DNA of 64,000 bases from Flavobacteriales bacterium (GTDB lineage: Bacteria; Bacteroidota; Bacteroidia; Flavobacteriales_C; GCA-002722245), in contig PBLA01000030.1 of NCBI GenBank assembly GCA_002722245.1, forward strand, positions 1 to 64,000, written 5' to 3'. Each line of letters begins with the position of its first letter. Positions within the stretch are counted from its first letter, which is position 1. Positions 6,669 to 60,077 of the stretch are shown in pieces. A model generated the notes under the pieces. It saw only the letters and a program-made list of their open reading frames with translations, was not told the DNA's origin and ran no database searches. The translations under genes and the position numbers were made by a program.

Positions 6669-7139
6669 ATGAAGGTCCAATTTTGGGTGATAGGAAAAAC
6701 AACTGATCATTATCTTATTCCTGGTATTGAAGAGTATATAAAGAGATTGAAACGGTATTGCCAGTTCGAATATATTGAACTTCCTGCTGCAAAAATTGGT
6801 AAAAATGCAACTGAACAAGATACGAAAACCAAAGAGGCTATAGTTGTATTGGAAAAAATTCAAAAAAGCGATTTCCTTGCTGTAATGGATGAGGTTGGGA
6901 AAGAATTTACTTCTAGGAAGTTTGCTGATTTTATTGCGAATCATCAAATGAGAGGCACTAAAAGATTAATTTTTTTAATTGGGGGAGCTTATGGTTTTTC
7001 GAATAAAATTTACGAGCGAGCGGATATTAAAATTGCACTATCTCAAATGACTTTTACTCATCAAATGGTGAGGTTGATTTTTACCGAGCAATTGTATCGG
7101 GCTTTTACCATAACGAAAGGCGAGAAGTACCATCATTGA
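6669..7139 (+). CDS. rlmH: 23S rRNA (pseudouridine-1915 N3) methyltransferase RlmH
   Basis: A 156-residue SPOUT-class methyltransferase, the usual RlmH length. It starts MKVQFWVIGKT and carries the typical IEEYIKRLKRY near the N-terminus, the SAM-binding knot region FLIGGAYGFS, and the diagnostic C-terminal EQLYRAFTITKGEKYHH. The enzyme methylates the pseudouridine at 23S rRNA position 1915 in assembled 70S ribosomes. ATG 6669 is preferred over an in-frame TTG at 6663, since family members begin with MK at this point. An exact TATTTTTG box (6658-6665) lies just before it, so it may have its own promoter although only 11 bases follow the previous gene. Confidence 0.95.
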   Translation: MKVQFWVIGKTTDHYLIPGIEEYIKRLKRYCQFEYIELPAAKIGKNATEQDTKTKEAIVVLEKIQKSDFLAVMDEVGKEFTSRKFADFIANHQMRGTKRLIFLIGGAYGFSNKIYERADIKIALSQMTFTHQMVRLIFTEQLYRAFTITKGEKYHH

Positions 7140-7298
7140 TTACAGAAAGAATTTATTTTGCATCATCTAAAATGAATATTGTGTTATAAAAAAATGTTTA
7201 AACCCGTTAATAGGTTAAGTTTGATTTAAGAGGCTTTTCTTGGTTCTCACGTGCTTCATATTAATAAAAAACTATTCATAAATCTTTATCAAAAAAGC

Positions 7299-7306
7299 TA
7301 CTTTTG
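7299..7306 (+). promoter_or_regulatory. -7 promoter element for rdgB
   Basis: TACTTTTG is an exact TAnnTTTG match with four bases (TACC) between it and the ATG at 7311. The box selects this ATG over the GTG 60 bases upstream, and places the transcription start at or within a few bases of the start codon. Confidence 0.55.
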
Positions 7307-7310
7307 TACC

Positions 7311-7886
7311 ATGAAAAAAATAGTATTTGCTACCAATAATTTAAATAAACTAAAGGAAGTGAGAGAGGCACTTCCTAATTTAGATATTGTGAGCTTATCA
7401 CAAATCCAATGTTTTGATGAGTTACCAGAGGAACAGGATAGTCTTCAAGGAAATGCTCAACAAAAGGCTGAGTATGTGTTTAATCGTTTTGGTGTTCCTT
7501 GTTTTGCAGATGATACAGGGTTGTTAATTAATGCCCTAGGAGGTGATCCTGGAGTGTATTCTGCAAGGTATGCCGGGTTGGAGTGTGATTCTGAAAAAAA
7601 TATGGATTTGGTACTGAAAAATATGACGAATCAAGAAGAGCGATCCGCTCTTTTTAAAACAGTTATTTGCTATTTTAATGGAAACGGTCCGAGGTTTTTT
7701 GAAGGAGAAGTTGAAGGAGAGATATTAAAAGAAAGAACTGGAGATGATGGTTTCGGATACGATCCTATTTTTAGACCAATTGGTTATGATTTGTCTTTCG
7801 CTCAAATGAGTATGGAGACAAAGAATGAAATTTCTCATAGAGGAAGAGCAGTAAAAAAATTAGTAGGTTTTTTACAATCAATGTGA
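7311..7886 (+). CDS. rdgB: Non-canonical purine NTP pyrophosphatase RdgB/HAM1
   Basis: A 191-residue HAM1-family enzyme that hydrolyses dITP, ITP and XTP to monophosphates and so cleans the nucleotide pool. The start MKKIVFATNNLNKLKEV contains the family ATxNxxK signature, followed by CFADDTGLLINALGGDPGVYSARYAG with the catalytic/metal Asp pair, and near the end DGFGYDPIF and ISHRGRAV, all diagnostic. ATG 7311 is chosen because the protein family begins here and a TACTTTTG box lies just upstream; the longer frame would add 20 residues with no homology. It converges with dgkA with a single base between the stop codons. Confidence 0.95.
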   Translation: MKKIVFATNNLNKLKEVREALPNLDIVSLSQIQCFDELPEEQDSLQGNAQQKAEYVFNRFGVPCFADDTGLLINALGGDPGVYSARYAGLECDSEKNMDLVLKNMTNQEERSALFKTVICYFNGNGPRFFEGEVEGEILKERTGDDGFGYDPIFRPIGYDLSFAQMSMETKNEISHRGRAVKKLVGFLQSM

Positions 7887-7887
7887 A

Positions 7888-8265
7888 TCAATCTGATATA
7901 ATGTAAGGCATAAAAACGATCAATCCGACTACTATACTTATTGAAGCGCTGATTAAAACAGCGCATGCCGAAACATCTTTTACTTTCTTTATTCGTTCAT
8001 CATTCTCTAAAGTTATTGCATCGCTCAGATATTCAATAGCGGTATTAAGAGCCTCTGCTGAAATAACTAGAGCAAAGGATAAAAGTAAATAGACCCATTC
8101 AAATCGTTGTATTTGGAAGTAACATCCCATGGCTATTATTAAAATAACTGCTAGAAAATGTATTCGGGCGTTATGTTCATAGCGAATAAGTGTTTTCAAG
8201 CCGTTAAAAGCATACCTAAAGCTTTTCAATCGACTTTTAAATGAAAATTTATGAATTTCTTTCAT
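7888..8265 (-). CDS. dgkA: Diacylglycerol/undecaprenol kinase family protein
   Basis: A 125-residue integral membrane protein with three hydrophobic helices, the usual DgkA size. The family signature EALNTAIEYLSD, which holds active-site Glu, Asn and Asp residues, is present, as are the N-terminal SFRYAFNGLK and RYEHNARIH segments. In Gram-negative bacteria the enzyme phosphorylates diacylglycerol; in Gram-positives undecaprenol. Which lipid is used here cannot be told. It stands alone on the minus strand, convergent with rdgB, and divergent from the hybrid kinase. Confidence 0.92.
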   Translation of the reverse strand: MKEIHKFSFKSRLKSFRYAFNGLKTLIRYEHNARIHFLAVILIIAMGCYFQIQRFEWVYLLLSFALVISAEALNTAIEYLSDAITLENDERIKKVKDVSACAVLISASISIVVGLIVFMPYIISD

Positions 8266-8392
8266 TTTGAATTAACGCACTCATCATTTAGTCATTGTAG
8301 TGTGTATGTTAGAAAATGTTAATGGTATAGAAGGAAATTCAAAGCCTTAGAACAAAATCCTATTTATAAGAGTAAAATGATAAAATTATAAG

Positions 8393-10207
8393 TTGGGGAA
8401 TCAGGATGAAATACAAAAAAATCATTTAGATCGTGCATTAGAGAAGATTCGCTTATTAGAGGTGTTAATGCAGTCCAAAGACGATGAAATTATTGCATTG
8501 AAGCATAGACTTAATGAGCAACTCGCAGATAAAGATGTGGTTTCTATCATGCTTTCTACAATTCTTGCTGAAATTGACGTAAAAGAAAATAGCGGAGTTG
8601 AGATAGAAGGAGATTTAAGTAAGATTCAACGATTACAATCCCTTATTTTAAATTTAAAAAGTAAAAAGAATCAGGCAGAGTTTGAAGCTGAAGTAAAGTC
8701 AAATTTTTTGGCAAATATGAGTCATGAGATTCGTACACCAATGAATGGAATAATGGGTTTAACAAAGCTATTATTAAACACAACGTTAGATCAACAGCAG
8801 GAGGAGTATTTAAAATCTATTGAATCGAGTTCAGATACTTTACTTGTTATAATTAACGACATTCTCGATATTTCAAAAATTGAGGCGGGTAAATTGAACT
8901 TAGAACATGAAGATGTTGATTTGATTAATGTGCTTCATTCGGTATTGGGGTTTTTTGAAGGTAAAGCAAGGGAAAAAGGAATAGAGATTATTGCGAATTT
9001 TCATGAAGCAAATCTTCCAGAGATTATTGTGGGAGATGCGGTTAGGTTAAATCAAATTTTATATAATTTGATTGGTAATGCAATAAAATTCACGGATAAG
9101 GGGAGTGTCTCCTTGAGTGTTAAAGCGACTAGTATAAACGAAAATGATGTGAGGCTCCGATTTATGATTTCTGATACGGGAATAGGAATAAGTGAGGAGC
9201 AACAAAAGAAGTTATTTAATGCTTTTAGTCAAGCGAAATCAAGTACGGCGAGGCAATTTGGAGGAACTGGTTTGGGACTTTCAATTGTAAAAAAATTAGT
9301 TGAGGCGCAAGGTGGTATTATTGAAGTGGAAAGTGAACCAGAAAAAGGCGCTTCATTTCAATTTGAATTGAGTTATCCTCACAAGAAACGTGAAGCTTCT
9401 GATGTAACTAAATATCAACAAATAGCGGCTAAGAATTTAGAAGGAGTCACAGTTCTCTTAGTGGAAGATAATATTGTTAATCAGGTCGTTGCTAGGGATT
9501 TATTGGCAGTAATCGGCGTAAAAACAGATGTTGCTAACAATGGTGAAGAGTGTTTAAATGTTATTGACGACGATCGTCATCAAATCATATTAATGGATAT
9601 GCATATGCCTGTCATGAATGGTTACGAAGCTATTATGAGATTGAGAGAAGATAATATAAAACTCCCAATAGTTGCACTAACTGCTCATGTAACAGAACAA
9701 GAGATAGAAGGTTTTATGACGGCTGGAGCTAACGGCTATTTATCCAAGCCGTATACGCCTCAGGATTTATATAGAACAATTGCCGACTTATTGCAACCAT
9801 CAGAGGTCATTAGTAGTCCAAAGACAAGATTTGGGTTGAATGATCAAGGTGGTAAGACCGTATTGAAAATGTGGAATAGAGATCACATGATGAATTATTT
9901 GGGAGGAAATGAAAAGATGTTGGTGAAGGTTTTAAATCAGATGGCTGTTGAGTTTCCTAAAAGCATTAAGGTGTTGAATGACGTTGTAAACGGTGGTCAT
10001 GTAAAAAAAATAAGCGCTGTTTGTCATAAAATTAAACCCAATATCAAAATGTTAGGTAATCAAGCAGTATATAAAGATGTGGTTGAATTAGAGCATGCTC
10101 TGAAAAAAAATAAAGATTCAAATGAGCTTAGAGGGCAGGTGAGTAGATTGATGAAAAACCTTCGAGAGTTGTTGGCGGAAATAAGCCAATGGCTCTCTTT
10201 TGAATAG
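8393..10207 (+). CDS. Soluble hybrid histidine kinase (HisKA-HATPase-REC-HPt)
   Basis: Residues 1-100 are predicted coiled coil with no membrane helix. The H-box [15 protein letters not shown] puts the phospho-His at residue 111. The ATPase N-box ([17 protein letters not shown]), DTGIGI and [10 protein letters not shown] are intact. A receiver domain starts at [10 protein letters not shown] with the acceptor Asp in [12 protein letters not shown] and the conserved Lys in LSKPY. The C-terminal 100 residues form an HPt domain with His in [14 protein letters not shown]. All parts for a His-Asp-His relay are therefore present in one cytosolic protein, without a visible input domain. The frame opens with TTG 8393; the first ATG is 8468, which would trim the coiled coil. 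No response regulator lies nearby, so the output partner is encoded elsewhere. Confidence 0.9.
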
Positions 10208-41927: not shown

Positions 41928-42497
41928 ATGCATGATATAGAGCCCTATTACAGTTGGCGACATATTTATACCGCAGAAGGGGATTCTGCATCACCCTTTT
42001 ATGGAAGAGAATATAGTGAGTTTACGTTCTCAGAGCGCGTATATGATCATTTTATACATCCCCAATGGGATAATATTGGTTCTCCAACTCTTTTTTTAAA
42101 GCTTTTGTATTGTAATTATGATGAACAATTCGCTGTGTTAGAATTTATGGGTGAATGGAATGACTGTTTGTATAATGATGTAATGACGCTCAAAAGGGAG
42201 GTTATTGACTTACTGCTCGCTGAAGGGATTCAAAAATTTTTACTTGTTGGTGAAAATGTAATGAATTTTCACTACTCCGATGATTGCTATTATGAAGAAT
42301 GGGCAGACGAAACTATTGATGGATGGATTGCAGGAGTCAATTTTCAAGAGCATGTTAAACGCGAAATGGCTAGTATTGGTATTGACCAGTATATTTTTTG
42401 GGGAGGAGATTTAGATGAGTTGCCTTGGCGTACATTTAAACCCCAAGATTTGATGTTGAAGATTGAAACAATTTTTAATAGACGATTAAAATTTTAG
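41928..42497 (+). CDS. Conserved Bacteroidota protein of unknown function
   Basis: A 189-residue cytosolic, acidic and aromatic-rich protein starting at ATG 41928 (MHDIEPYYSWRHIY). It has long conserved-looking phrases (SPFYGREYSEFTFSERVY, IHPQWDNIGSPTLFLKLLY, AVLEFMGEWNDCLYND, FLLVGENVMNFHYSDDCYYEEW, FWGGDLDELPWRTFKPQDL). I recognise these as typical of an uncharacterised family seen across Bacteroidota, but know no function. Many Asp, Glu and Trp suggest a binding protein rather than an enzyme. TATTTTTA (41917-41924) lies three bases before the ATG. Confidence 0.7.
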   Translation: MHDIEPYYSWRHIYTAEGDSASPFYGREYSEFTFSERVYDHFIHPQWDNIGSPTLFLKLLYCNYDEQFAVLEFMGEWNDCLYNDVMTLKREVIDLLLAEGIQKFLLVGENVMNFHYSDDCYYEEWADETIDGWIAGVNFQEHVKREMASIGIDQYIFWGGDLDELPWRTFKPQDLMLKIETIFNRRLKF

Positions 42498-42593: not shown

Positions 42594-42601
42594 TACTTTT
42601 G
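42594..42601 (+). promoter_or_regulatory. -7 promoter element for the IF2N-like gene
   Basis: TACTTTTG matches TAnnTTTG exactly, giving a leader of about 20 bases before the ATG at 42627. No clear -33 TTG is seen at the usual distance. Confidence 0.5.
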
Positions 42602-42626: not shown

Positions 42627-43613
42627 ATGAGGCTTAATCAGTTAGCAAAAAAAGTAGGAAAACCTTATACAAGAGTTGAAAAATATATCCGAAAAGATTT
42701 AAAAATAGAAGGTGTGGAAGGACCAAATACTCGAGTGGATGACGATATTGTTCAAAAAGTTATTTCAAAGTTTGGCTTAGCAGTAGAAACTGTAAATAAA
42801 CAACAGCGAGTAAAGATGGAAACAATTGAAGCAAAACCTGCTGAGATTGCTCCTGATGAGCGAGGTCTCGAAGATATTAAATTGGATTTTGCAACTCCTG
42901 CTGAAGCGGTTATTCCTAATCTTGAAGGTTTGGGAGAAGTAAAAGAGGATTTTGAATCCACTGAAGATAAGTTGCATAAAACAGATATTTCATTAGAGGA
43001 ACAAAATGTTTCAGTTGATGTGGTAGAGGATTTAAAGGCGCATTCTGATTTACCAAAGTCAAATGAAAAAGTAATTGCTGAAACTGTTGAAACGGAAGAA
43101 ACAGTCCTGCATTTGGATGAAGAGGGGACAATTGTAGCTCCAAAAGTTGAGCTTGAGGGAATTACTGTTAAAGGAAAAATTGATATTCCAGGGGTAACGG
43201 ACCAACCTGAAAAATTAGAAGAGGAAGTGTTATTAACTCCAGAGCAAGAAGCTGAAAATAAAGAAATCAAAGAGAAAAGATTGGAGGAGGAAGCTAGGAA
43301 AGAAGAGGCTAGGAGAAAGAAAATTGATGAGGATGCGGCAAGAGCAGCTGCATATAAGGCCAAAAAAGAAAACGAAGCTAAAGAAGCACTCAAAGCAAAA
43401 ATAGCCGAAGAGAAAAAGAAGAAAAGAGAGGAAGGAAGGGAGTACTATTTAAATAGTGTCAAACAGGTTTCACCGGGCCAAAAAAACAAAAAGAAGAAAA
43501 CGAAGGCAAGTCTTAAAGCAGAGGATAATAAAGCATTTGAATCAAATGAGAAGTATGCTAAGACAGAGGATATGACCACCTGGCAAAAGATTGTTCGATG
43601 GTTTAATACATAA
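42627..43613 (+). CDS. Free-standing IF2N-like domain on a charged, disordered tail
   Basis: A 328-residue protein starting at ATG 42627 (an in-frame TTG at 42615 is less likely). Residues 1-50 (MRLNQLAKKVGKPYTRVEKY, then GPNTRVDDDIVQKVISKFG) resemble the N-terminal domain of bacterial initiation factor IF-2 (IF2N), a small helical module. The rest is low-complexity: an acidic region rich in Glu, Asp, Val and Thr (about 60-200), then a long Lys/Glu/Ala helix (about 205-275, EEEARKEEARRKKIDEDAAR) and a Lys-rich stretch, with a C-terminal WQKIVRWFNT. There is no GTPase or other IF-2 domain. It may bind ribosomes or nucleic acid; this is inferred only from composition. Confidence 0.65.
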   Translation: MRLNQLAKKVGKPYTRVEKYIRKDLKIEGVEGPNTRVDDDIVQKVISKFGLAVETVNKQQRVKMETIEAKPAEIAPDERGLEDIKLDFATPAEAVIPNLEGLGEVKEDFESTEDKLHKTDISLEEQNVSVDVVEDLKAHSDLPKSNEKVIAETVETEETVLHLDEEGTIVAPKVELEGITVKGKIDIPGVTDQPEKLEEEVLLTPEQEAENKEIKEKRLEEEARKEEARRKKIDEDAARAAAYKAKKENEAKEALKAKIAEEKKKKREEGREYYLNSVKQVSPGQKNKKKKTKASLKAEDNKAFESNEKYAKTEDMTTWQKIVRWFNT

Positions 43614-59057: not shown

Positions 59058-60077
59058 ATGGATTTTAAAATTGGGGATAAAGTAAGTTTTTTAAATGAGG
59101 CCCTTGATGGTGTGGTTACTCGGATCATTGATAATGATTCTTTAGAAGTGACGACGAGTGATGGGTTTGGAATACCTGTCTTAAAAGAGGAATTAGTTAA
59201 GTCAGGTGATGCCTCTTTTTCAAATAATCAATTAAAAGGTCATAATCAAGAAACAATTAAATCCGCAGCAAACGTTCCATTTTCAAAGAAGTATTCTATT
59301 GAAAGAAAGCCTTATTTATGTTTCTCCAATAAAGACTCAAAAGCAAAAGAGGTATTTCTTTTAAATAATACTCATTACACCCAATTTTATGCCATCAGAG
59401 TGCAAAGGAAAGGAGAGTATGTTTTGCTTTACTCTGGAAAGGTAAATAAACAAAGTTATACGTTTATTGGAGCTTTTGAGGGATCTGAATTAGAGGTGTT
59501 TAATAAACTGTTTGTAGATTCATTAAGTCTTGAATTTAGTGAAAAAGAAAGGATGCTACCAAAGTCCATAGAATTGAAAATTAAGCCTCAAAAATTATTT
59601 AAAGACTCTTCCTACAAGGAAATTCCAATACTGAATAAAGAATGTATCGCTGTAGATGTATCAGGCGAATTTGTTCAGAAGATTGAGGCTGACAAAGAAC
59701 CAGTAGCGTTAACGCCAAAAAAGGAATTCACTTATTTACAAAAAGGTCCCAAGATTATTGGGAAAATTGAATTGAAGCCCAAAAAAAGAGGACGAAGTAG
59801 AGAAGAGCTTGATTTACATATTGAAAAACTAGGTGTGAAGTATAAGGGAAAAACAAACGCTCAAATTGTGCAAATTCAACTTGGAGCAGCAAAGTCCTTT
59901 ATTGATCAATCTATTCTAGCAGGAAAAAGAGAAATTGTTTTGATTCATGGCGTTGGCAATGGTCGACTAAAGGATGAGGTTCATAAATTATTAAAAAGTT
60001 ACTACGGAATTAGATTTGAATCGGCAGATATTCGCCTTTTTGGAGAAGGGGCAACTCTTGTTCATTTAAAAGGATAA
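59058..60077 (+). CDS. Smr-domain protein with DUF2027
   Basis: A 339-residue protein. The N-terminal DUF2027 part has MDFKIGDKVSFLNEALDGVV and KKYSIERKPYLCFSNKDSK. The last 95 residues are a Smr domain: LDLHIEKLGVKYKGKTNAQIV, then EIVLIHGVGNGRLKDEVHKLL, the His-Gly nuclease-like motif, and IRLFGEGATLVHLKG. Smr domains nick branched DNA or act on RNA and stalled ribosomes, as in MutS2. This arrangement is common in Bacteroidota and its role is not settled. It is followed by mltG after 23 bases, perhaps in an operon. Confidence 0.88.
   Translation: MDFKIGDKVSFLNEALDGVVTRIIDNDSLEVTTSDGFGIPVLKEELVKSGDASFSNNQLKGHNQETIKSAANVPFSKKYSIERKPYLCFSNKDSKAKEVFLLNNTHYTQFYAIRVQRKGEYVLLYSGKVNKQSYTFIGAFEGSELEVFNKLFVDSLSLEFSEKERMLPKSIELKIKPQKLFKDSSYKEIPILNKECIAVDVSGEFVQKIEADKEPVALTPKKEFTYLQKGPKIIGKIELKPKKRGRSREELDLHIEKLGVKYKGKTNAQIVQIQLGAAKSFIDQSILAGKREIVLIHGVGNGRLKDEVHKLLKSYYGIRFESADIRLFGEGATLVHLKG

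Follow-up and report, generated by a model that had tools for sequence, protein, structure and literature searches.

What would a bacterium use the first domain of translation initiation factor 2 (IF-2) for, if this domain is encoded apart from the GTPase? The question is raised by an open reading frame at 42627..43613 on the forward strand of the window, the whole stretch of 64,000 nucleotides of Flavobacteriales DNA that was analysed. It begins with an ATG at 42627, ends with a stop codon at 43611-43613 and encodes 328 amino acids; translation, orthologues and profile searches identify it as a stand-alone gene similar to Domain I of IF-2.

Architecture and conservation of the protein

The original prediction described an IF2N-like module in the first 50 residues, followed by an acidic region, a long KEA helix and a Lys-rich end that resemble the linker of IF-2, with no G domain behind them. 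All of these parts are present in the translation and in the AlphaFold model, and the frame ends at residue 328 with neither a G domain nor the C-terminal tRNA-binding domains. The resemblance to the IF-2 linker goes even further, to a specific motif in common; this motif (residues 171-188) and a conserved Trp-containing C-terminus had been overlooked.

The N1-like domain (residues 1-51, 42627..42779, + strand), supported by Pfam, profiles, AlphaFold and fold comparison, contains predicted helices at residues 3-10, 14-24 and 39-49. An acidic linker follows (52-150, 42780..43076, +), predicted from composition and AlphaFold to be mostly disordered, and then a conserved block (151-192, 43077..43202, +), delimited by alignment and motif searches, which holds the IF-2-linker motif with GKIDIP at residues 183-188 (43173-43190, +). 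AlphaFold predicts a single long charged helix (205-280, 43239..43466, +), and translation and model both give a Lys-rich stretch (283-314, 43473..43568, +). The C-terminal amphipathic tail (43569..43610, +) ends in TTWQKIVRWFNT and is placed by alignment and AlphaFold, with a helix at residues 318-327.

The full-length model was built with 60 alignment rows and reached a pTM of 0.29, so that no overall arrangement of the parts can be read from it. Its N-domain (about residues 1-50) has a pLDDT of about 97, compared to 86 for the isolated domain. Residues ~50 to ~200 are mostly disordered, with somewhat higher values of 55-65 in the motif block, and the long helix exceeds 90 from about residue 211. 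For the tail the hydrophobic moment is 0.70 (p 0.015 by shuffling) and the net charge +2, and to our eye the tail resembles the membrane helix of FtsA; the FtsA of the same genome ends in a sequence unlike it. Within the family just 41 of 68 proteins show amphipathicity of the C-tail at p<=0.1. A function of the C-terminal helix as membrane anchor is a possibility, and in our judgement a rather unlikely one.

Three of the four other genomes of the genus (G002, G003, G004) have an orthologue with the same gene order and the same start, while none was found in the remaining one, G001, an assembly that is 74% complete. Between orthologues 42-45 of 51 residues are identical in the N-domain, 28-36 of 42 in the motif block and 12-13 of the last 14, with low identity in the acidic and helical parts. 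Substitutions in the N-domain fall mostly on the third codon position (5/1/26, 4/1/25 and 11/4/24), those in the motif block likewise, and those in the C-tail too, on few changes. This pattern indicates that the N-domain and the motif block are probably under purifying selection. Directly upstream lies a gene for a 189-aa protein (41928-42497, +), a neighbour conserved in the four genus genomes examined, for which no Pfam family was found at E<=0.01.

Homology to IF-2 and spread of the family

Taken by themselves, residues 1-50 of the window protein match Pfam IF2_N (PF04760) with an E-value of 0.0032; the predicted similarity to the IF2N profile is therefore visible, but the 17.6 bits stay under the gathering cut-off of 25.3 bits. 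The whole protein matched neither IF2_N nor any other Pfam family, and the trimmed domain of another member (L018) came to 24.7 bits, also below the cut-off. A TolA match of the window protein (11.8 bits) was taken as a low-complexity match. It is the family as a whole that bears out the IF2N-like module, with IF2_N matches at E<=0.01 in 31 of 53 stand-alone N-domains (best 4.4e-8) and with a family profile that finds the IF-2 of the same genome.

The family came into view only through profiles. A search with the single sequence (P0001) found the own genus only, bar weak matches taken as chance; ten such matches outside the genus, from the whole-protein search of 100 relatives, were judged in this way, and a scan of named genomes with the single window sequence gave no match. 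With a profile of the four genus members (A1) a further member came up in G127, which belongs to another family. Its addition gave A2, then A3 (13 rows) and A6 (60 stand-alones), which opened up the rest. In the own genome the window protein was the sole match of A3, which missed IF-2 at E<=10. A6 finds this IF-2 at an E-value of 2.2e-13, and the best IF-2 N-termini among the genomes of the class at 7e-23. Its matches to IF-2 span model positions 1 to ~170, corresponding to the N-domain and the linker motif.

The widest profile search covered 395 genomes, all of the same class. Full-length matches to A6 were obtained in 15 of them (frames of 236-347 aa, E<=1.2e-34), which fall in five families (f1, f5, f14, f19, f33); the remaining matches down to E 1e-15 are in frames as long as IF-2 (at least 883 aa, E>=7e-23). 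A 222-aa match in G005 is the start of infB, located after nusA and cut by the contig end, and genus g2 is therefore counted as lacking the stand-alone gene. Frames of 381-415 aa that A3 matched at the motif alone (six were read) carry a chance GKVKLP-like string; they are presumably tRNA-thiolation enzymes of the MnmA type. Three other frames we take to be isoleucyl-tRNA-synthetase-like (L021), dehydrogenase-like (L022) and phosphoglycerate-dehydrogenase-like (L023).

Among the named genomes, the best 80 of 94 confirmed matches correspond to 78 loci, of which 67 are uncut stand-alones, five are cut by a contig end and six are infB; one of the five cut loci, L254, is also infB. The named stand-alones come from Cyclobacteriaceae, Roseivirgaceae, Fulvivirgaceae, Flammeovirgaceae, Crocinitomicaceae, Vicingaceae and unplaced Flavobacteriales, among others. 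The members have the order of their parts in common: an N1-like three-helix domain, an acidic linker, the GKI(D/E)L motif, a long charged helix, a Lys-rich stretch and a Trp-containing C-terminus. GKI(D/E)(L/I) occurs in 65 of the 67 uncut stand-alones listed (exceptions L192 and L201), a count biased upward because retrieval of the named loci was seeded with the N-terminal and motif patterns MRL(G/A)QL(A/S)R(Q/K) or K(I/V)(I/L/V)GKI(D/E/N)LP. A Trp lies within the last 14 residues in 65 of the 67 listed as well, and the usual C-terminus is missing from L192 and from L218 (196 aa). For 13 members tested no NCBIfam model matched at E<=0.01, and the literature searched, which covered few subscription papers, yielded no description of a stand-alone IF2_N family. 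The window protein thus belongs to a conserved uncharacterised family, being neither a fragment nor a one-off, and this family occurs, to judge by the named loci, across several groups of Bacteroidota.

Which part of IF-2 is related to these proteins can be narrowed down. The profile of the stand-alone N-domains recognises the first IF-2 N-domain, at about residues 8-65, with E-values of 7e-14 to 1e-6 in many IF-2s, and reaches no better than 0.16 for the canonical second IF2_N domain. The genome's own infB retains both, which answers the question whether the domain had been lost there: N1 at about residues 7-58 (L131, E 1.7e-6) and IF2_N/N2 at 317-365 (53.6 bits). Columns conserved in stand-alones and IF-2 alike include R2, L3, A7, N34, K36, F49 and the motif. 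On these comparisons of sequence we regard homology of the family to the IF-2 N-terminus as nearly certain.

In a tree built jointly from N-domain and motif (78 columns, 131 rows), 78 of the 79 rows labelled as stand-alone fall on one side of a branch with an SH-aLRT of 97, and the lone exception, L254, is the infB cut by a contig end. Constraining all 79 together gave a tree better than the free one, and a single clade was not rejected (p-AU 0.76). The stand-alones probably share one origin, which a tree of 78 columns supports and does not prove. The IF-2 rows nearest to their clade are L250, L097 and L269.

The N-domain is predicted to adopt the compact three-helix fold of the IF2 N-domain. 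Foldseek gave no match to the model at E<=1e-3, in a list mixing IF2 and helix-turn-helix domains, and sequence and profile searches of solved structures found no relative. With VIA-align six of the seven best entries are IF2 chains, at Z 5.2-6.6, values which below 8 are not decisive: 4b44 reached 6.6, the integrative model 9a4o 6.0 (rmsd 1.8 over 49 residues) and 7uiu, with N2 on the 30S subunit, 5.2. Plasmid pSK1 Par scored 5.9, RacA 4.8-4.9 and MerR-type domains lower. The fold alone cannot separate IF-2 from the RacA, MerR and Par kinds, whereas sequence does; for these DNA-binding domains, similar and small as their fold is, no sequence link was found.

Compared to Domain I of IF-2, the stand-alone proteins have a homologous N-domain, the same linker motif as the IF-2s of these bacteria and a fold predicted to be the same. 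IF-2 continues with N2, the G domain and the tRNA-binding domain. The stand-alones lack all three; a long helix, a Lys-rich part and a C-terminus with Trp, all peculiar to them, follow instead, and their gene is a separate one preceded by a promoter-like box of its own.

The linker motif and the genomic neighbourhood

Outside the family the motif is found mainly in IF-2. Of 66 distinct IF-2 frames, 62 carry it by a loose pattern, 35 of them in two copies, and 55 by a strict one; many of the 66 were fetched by profiles that include the motif. As the closest relative is N1 and 62 of these 66 related IF-2s also have the motif in their linkers, N1 and motif seem to derive jointly from infB. The strict pattern is rare in other frames, with ten matches in 355,582 aa, some of which are IF-2s with a low-scoring N1. 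A motif profile run on 20 genomes gave 34 hits at E<1e-3, namely ten stand-alones, 23 frames of IF-2 size (754-1027 aa, assigned by size rather than one by one) and one cut infB; since this profile was built from stand-alones and IF-2, its message is that no third kind of carrier turned up. We know of no function assigned to GKI(D/E)LP as a linear motif in the IF-2s of these bacteria.

A looser pattern finds just two ORFs within the window, the stand-alone gene and a DUF2027-Smr protein (59058..60077, +; Smr 41.2 bits, DUF2027 32.1 bits). This second carrier has GPKIIGKIEL in the linker between both domains (profile match 59742-59774) and is otherwise unrelated to the stand-alone protein. This linker carries the motif in all five genomes of the genus, as GQIEL in G003; the 15 DUF2027-Smr linkers that were read in other families all lack it (21 DUF2027 loci, 20 printed). 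By profile it is weak, with E-values of 0.038 in the window and 0.002 in G004.

The stand-alone gene has its own candidate promoter element. TACTTTTG at 42594..42601 (+), 25 nt before the ATG, matches TAnnTTTG, given as the flavobacterial sigma-A -7 box consensus in PMC9723704. The same box lies upstream of 56 of the 66 listed members having 80 nt of upstream sequence, compared to 2.8 expected from shuffles.

No gene constantly adjoins the stand-alone between families. In Cytophagales and kin an ArfB-type gene precedes the stand-alone in the same orientation at 18 of the 67 listed loci (15 at <=320 nt, one overlapping, two at ~2 kb); L243, missed by a single-string count, raises these to 19. 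In G162 (L113) the order is reversed compared to the other loci, the stand-alone (7989-8684) overlapping the following arfB (8672-9100). All eight genes tested, seven upstream cases and that of G162, pass the NCBI cut-off for ArfB. Cytophagales account for sixteen of the 19 loci; one of the others carries the name Chitinophaga, and the remaining two are unranked. On the stand-alone tree the pairing needs eight changes, being clustered without forming a single clean block, and the promoter-like box precedes the stand-alone in 17 of the 19 ArfB loci and in 39 of 47 others.

Other neighbourhoods are local. In Crocinitomix-like loci (L235, L246, L248, L257 and L114, the last in G194 at 9060-10184) the next same-strand gene starts with MKLRHIII; it presumably encodes a membrane-fusion or efflux-like protein, and in G194 the ORF after it is large and looks to us like an efflux pump. 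Vicingaceae-like loci (L180-L183 and L111, the last in G378 at 6905-7672) share one gene directly upstream on the same strand, which we assume to encode a cyclophilin-like lipoprotein.

A putative free Domain I and its possible partner

Pull-down and in-cell photo-crosslinks in E. coli show that Domain I of IF2 is a NusA-binding module (PMC12297416). This binding of N1 was shown only recently (2025), and an AlphaFold model in the same source places N1 (residues 1-50) and a two-strand segment (57-90) on KH2/AR1 of NusA. The stand-alone N1 and motif match this NusA-binding part in their layout. In the genome studied here a gene that we take to be rimP, nusA and infB follow each other in this order, and the own NusA has a C-terminal tail of ~65 residues past its KH domains, presumably AR-like.

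By analogy, the stand-alone protein would be a free Domain I, a paralogue of that of the phylum's own IF-2 in which N1 and GKI(D/E)LP stand before a helix, a basic stretch and a Trp tail, and which docks on a partner of IF-2, most likely NusA, without delivering the GTPase. This combined reading has, in our estimate, a little less than an even chance. For its first part, that N1 and the linker motif dock on the partner used by IF-2 Domain I, we consider the chances balanced. By E. coli homology this partner would be the C-terminal part of NusA (KH2/AR1) on elongating or paused RNA polymerase, a choice that we make tentatively and below even odds. As the protein lacks both the GTPase and a tRNA-binding domain, its docking would either keep IF-2 off NusA or link NusA and RNA polymerase to the target of the C-terminal helix, which may be a membrane surface or another protein. 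Partner, competition or bridging, and C-terminal anchor are what we infer. Several observations count against the NusA reading: the published interaction is from E. coli, the 13-row profile A3 missed the own IF-2, the window protein stays under the IF2_N cut-off, the neighbouring ArfB genes in Cytophagales suggest ribosome rescue and not transcription, and the predicted fold of the N-domain also resembles that of MerR, RacA and Par DNA-binding domains. Since the gene is absent from most of the genomes sampled (found in 15 of 395), its role is not essential in the class.

Competition with IF-2 at the ribosome, as originally proposed, is possible, and it would take the form of a 30S-binding protein whose N-domain contacts 16S helix 16 as N2 does, with effects on IF-2 recruitment, subunit joining or hibernation. 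N1 and N2 share their fold and 7uiu is among the VIA-align matches. N2 binds helix 16 (PMC9192638), and N1 is reported in a preprint to help bring IF-2 to the 30S complex (PMC13345285). However, the sequence homology is to N1 and not to N2, and the segment past the domain is acidic, whereas the tail of N2 wraps an RNA groove (PMC9192638). We consider this explanation unlikely.

Quite unlikely, in turn, is an auxiliary role in rescuing ribosomes or dealing with their collisions, alongside ArfB and, within the genus studied here, also the Smr protein. The upstream ArfB-type genes in 19 listed loci and the reversed pair in G162 speak for it, as does the motif in the genus's DUF2027-Smr protein (5/5 genomes, 0/15 linkers of other families). 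Yet the pairing may be inherited synteny, because it is nearly confined to Cytophagales (16/19); 17 of the 19 paired stand-alones keep their own promoter-like box, and neither the window nor the other three genus stretches examined (L117-L119) contain a GPGGQ-bearing frame.

Binding to nucleoid DNA, the other function first suggested, may be considered in view of the predicted fold, which resembles that of MerR/RacA-type helix-turn-helix domains and is its sole pointer. It would correspond to a RacA-like tether, with the N-domain on DNA, the long helix as spacer and the C-terminal helix on the membrane. RacA (Z 4.9) and pSK1 Par (Z 5.9) are among the highest-scoring fold matches, the tail in the window is amphipathic with its net charge of +2, and RacA presumably has a comparable layout of an N-domain and a long coil. 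Against this, the sequence relatives are IF-2s, which use the domain in contacts with NusA and the ribosome, and the shared IF-2 linker motif is left unexplained; we find a tether very doubtful. A functionless, decaying fragment of infB would account for the homologous N-terminal part, but the single clade, the conserved parts, the own C-terminus, the several families, the third-position substitutions in N-domain and motif block and the promoter-like box in 56 of 66 listed members make its probability negligible.

Bacteroidota start translation without Shine-Dalgarno pairing, and the small protein may tune how protein synthesis starts. In its most far-reaching form, to which we give a low probability, the reading of a free Domain I on NusA describes a dedicated IF-2-derived factor that would fill the NusA docking site and, through its helix and amphipathic C-terminus, hold the transcription complex elsewhere, at the membrane or the rescue machinery. 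As such it would regulate transcription-translation coupling in trans in these bacteria, and the motif would mark a docking site shared by IF-2, the stand-alone protein and the Smr protein of one genus. A gene that keeps N1 and the linker motif and has dropped the GTPase would also provide a natural test of what the docking of N1 on NusA is for, and it draws attention to GKI(D/E)LP as a linear motif of IF-2 in these bacteria.
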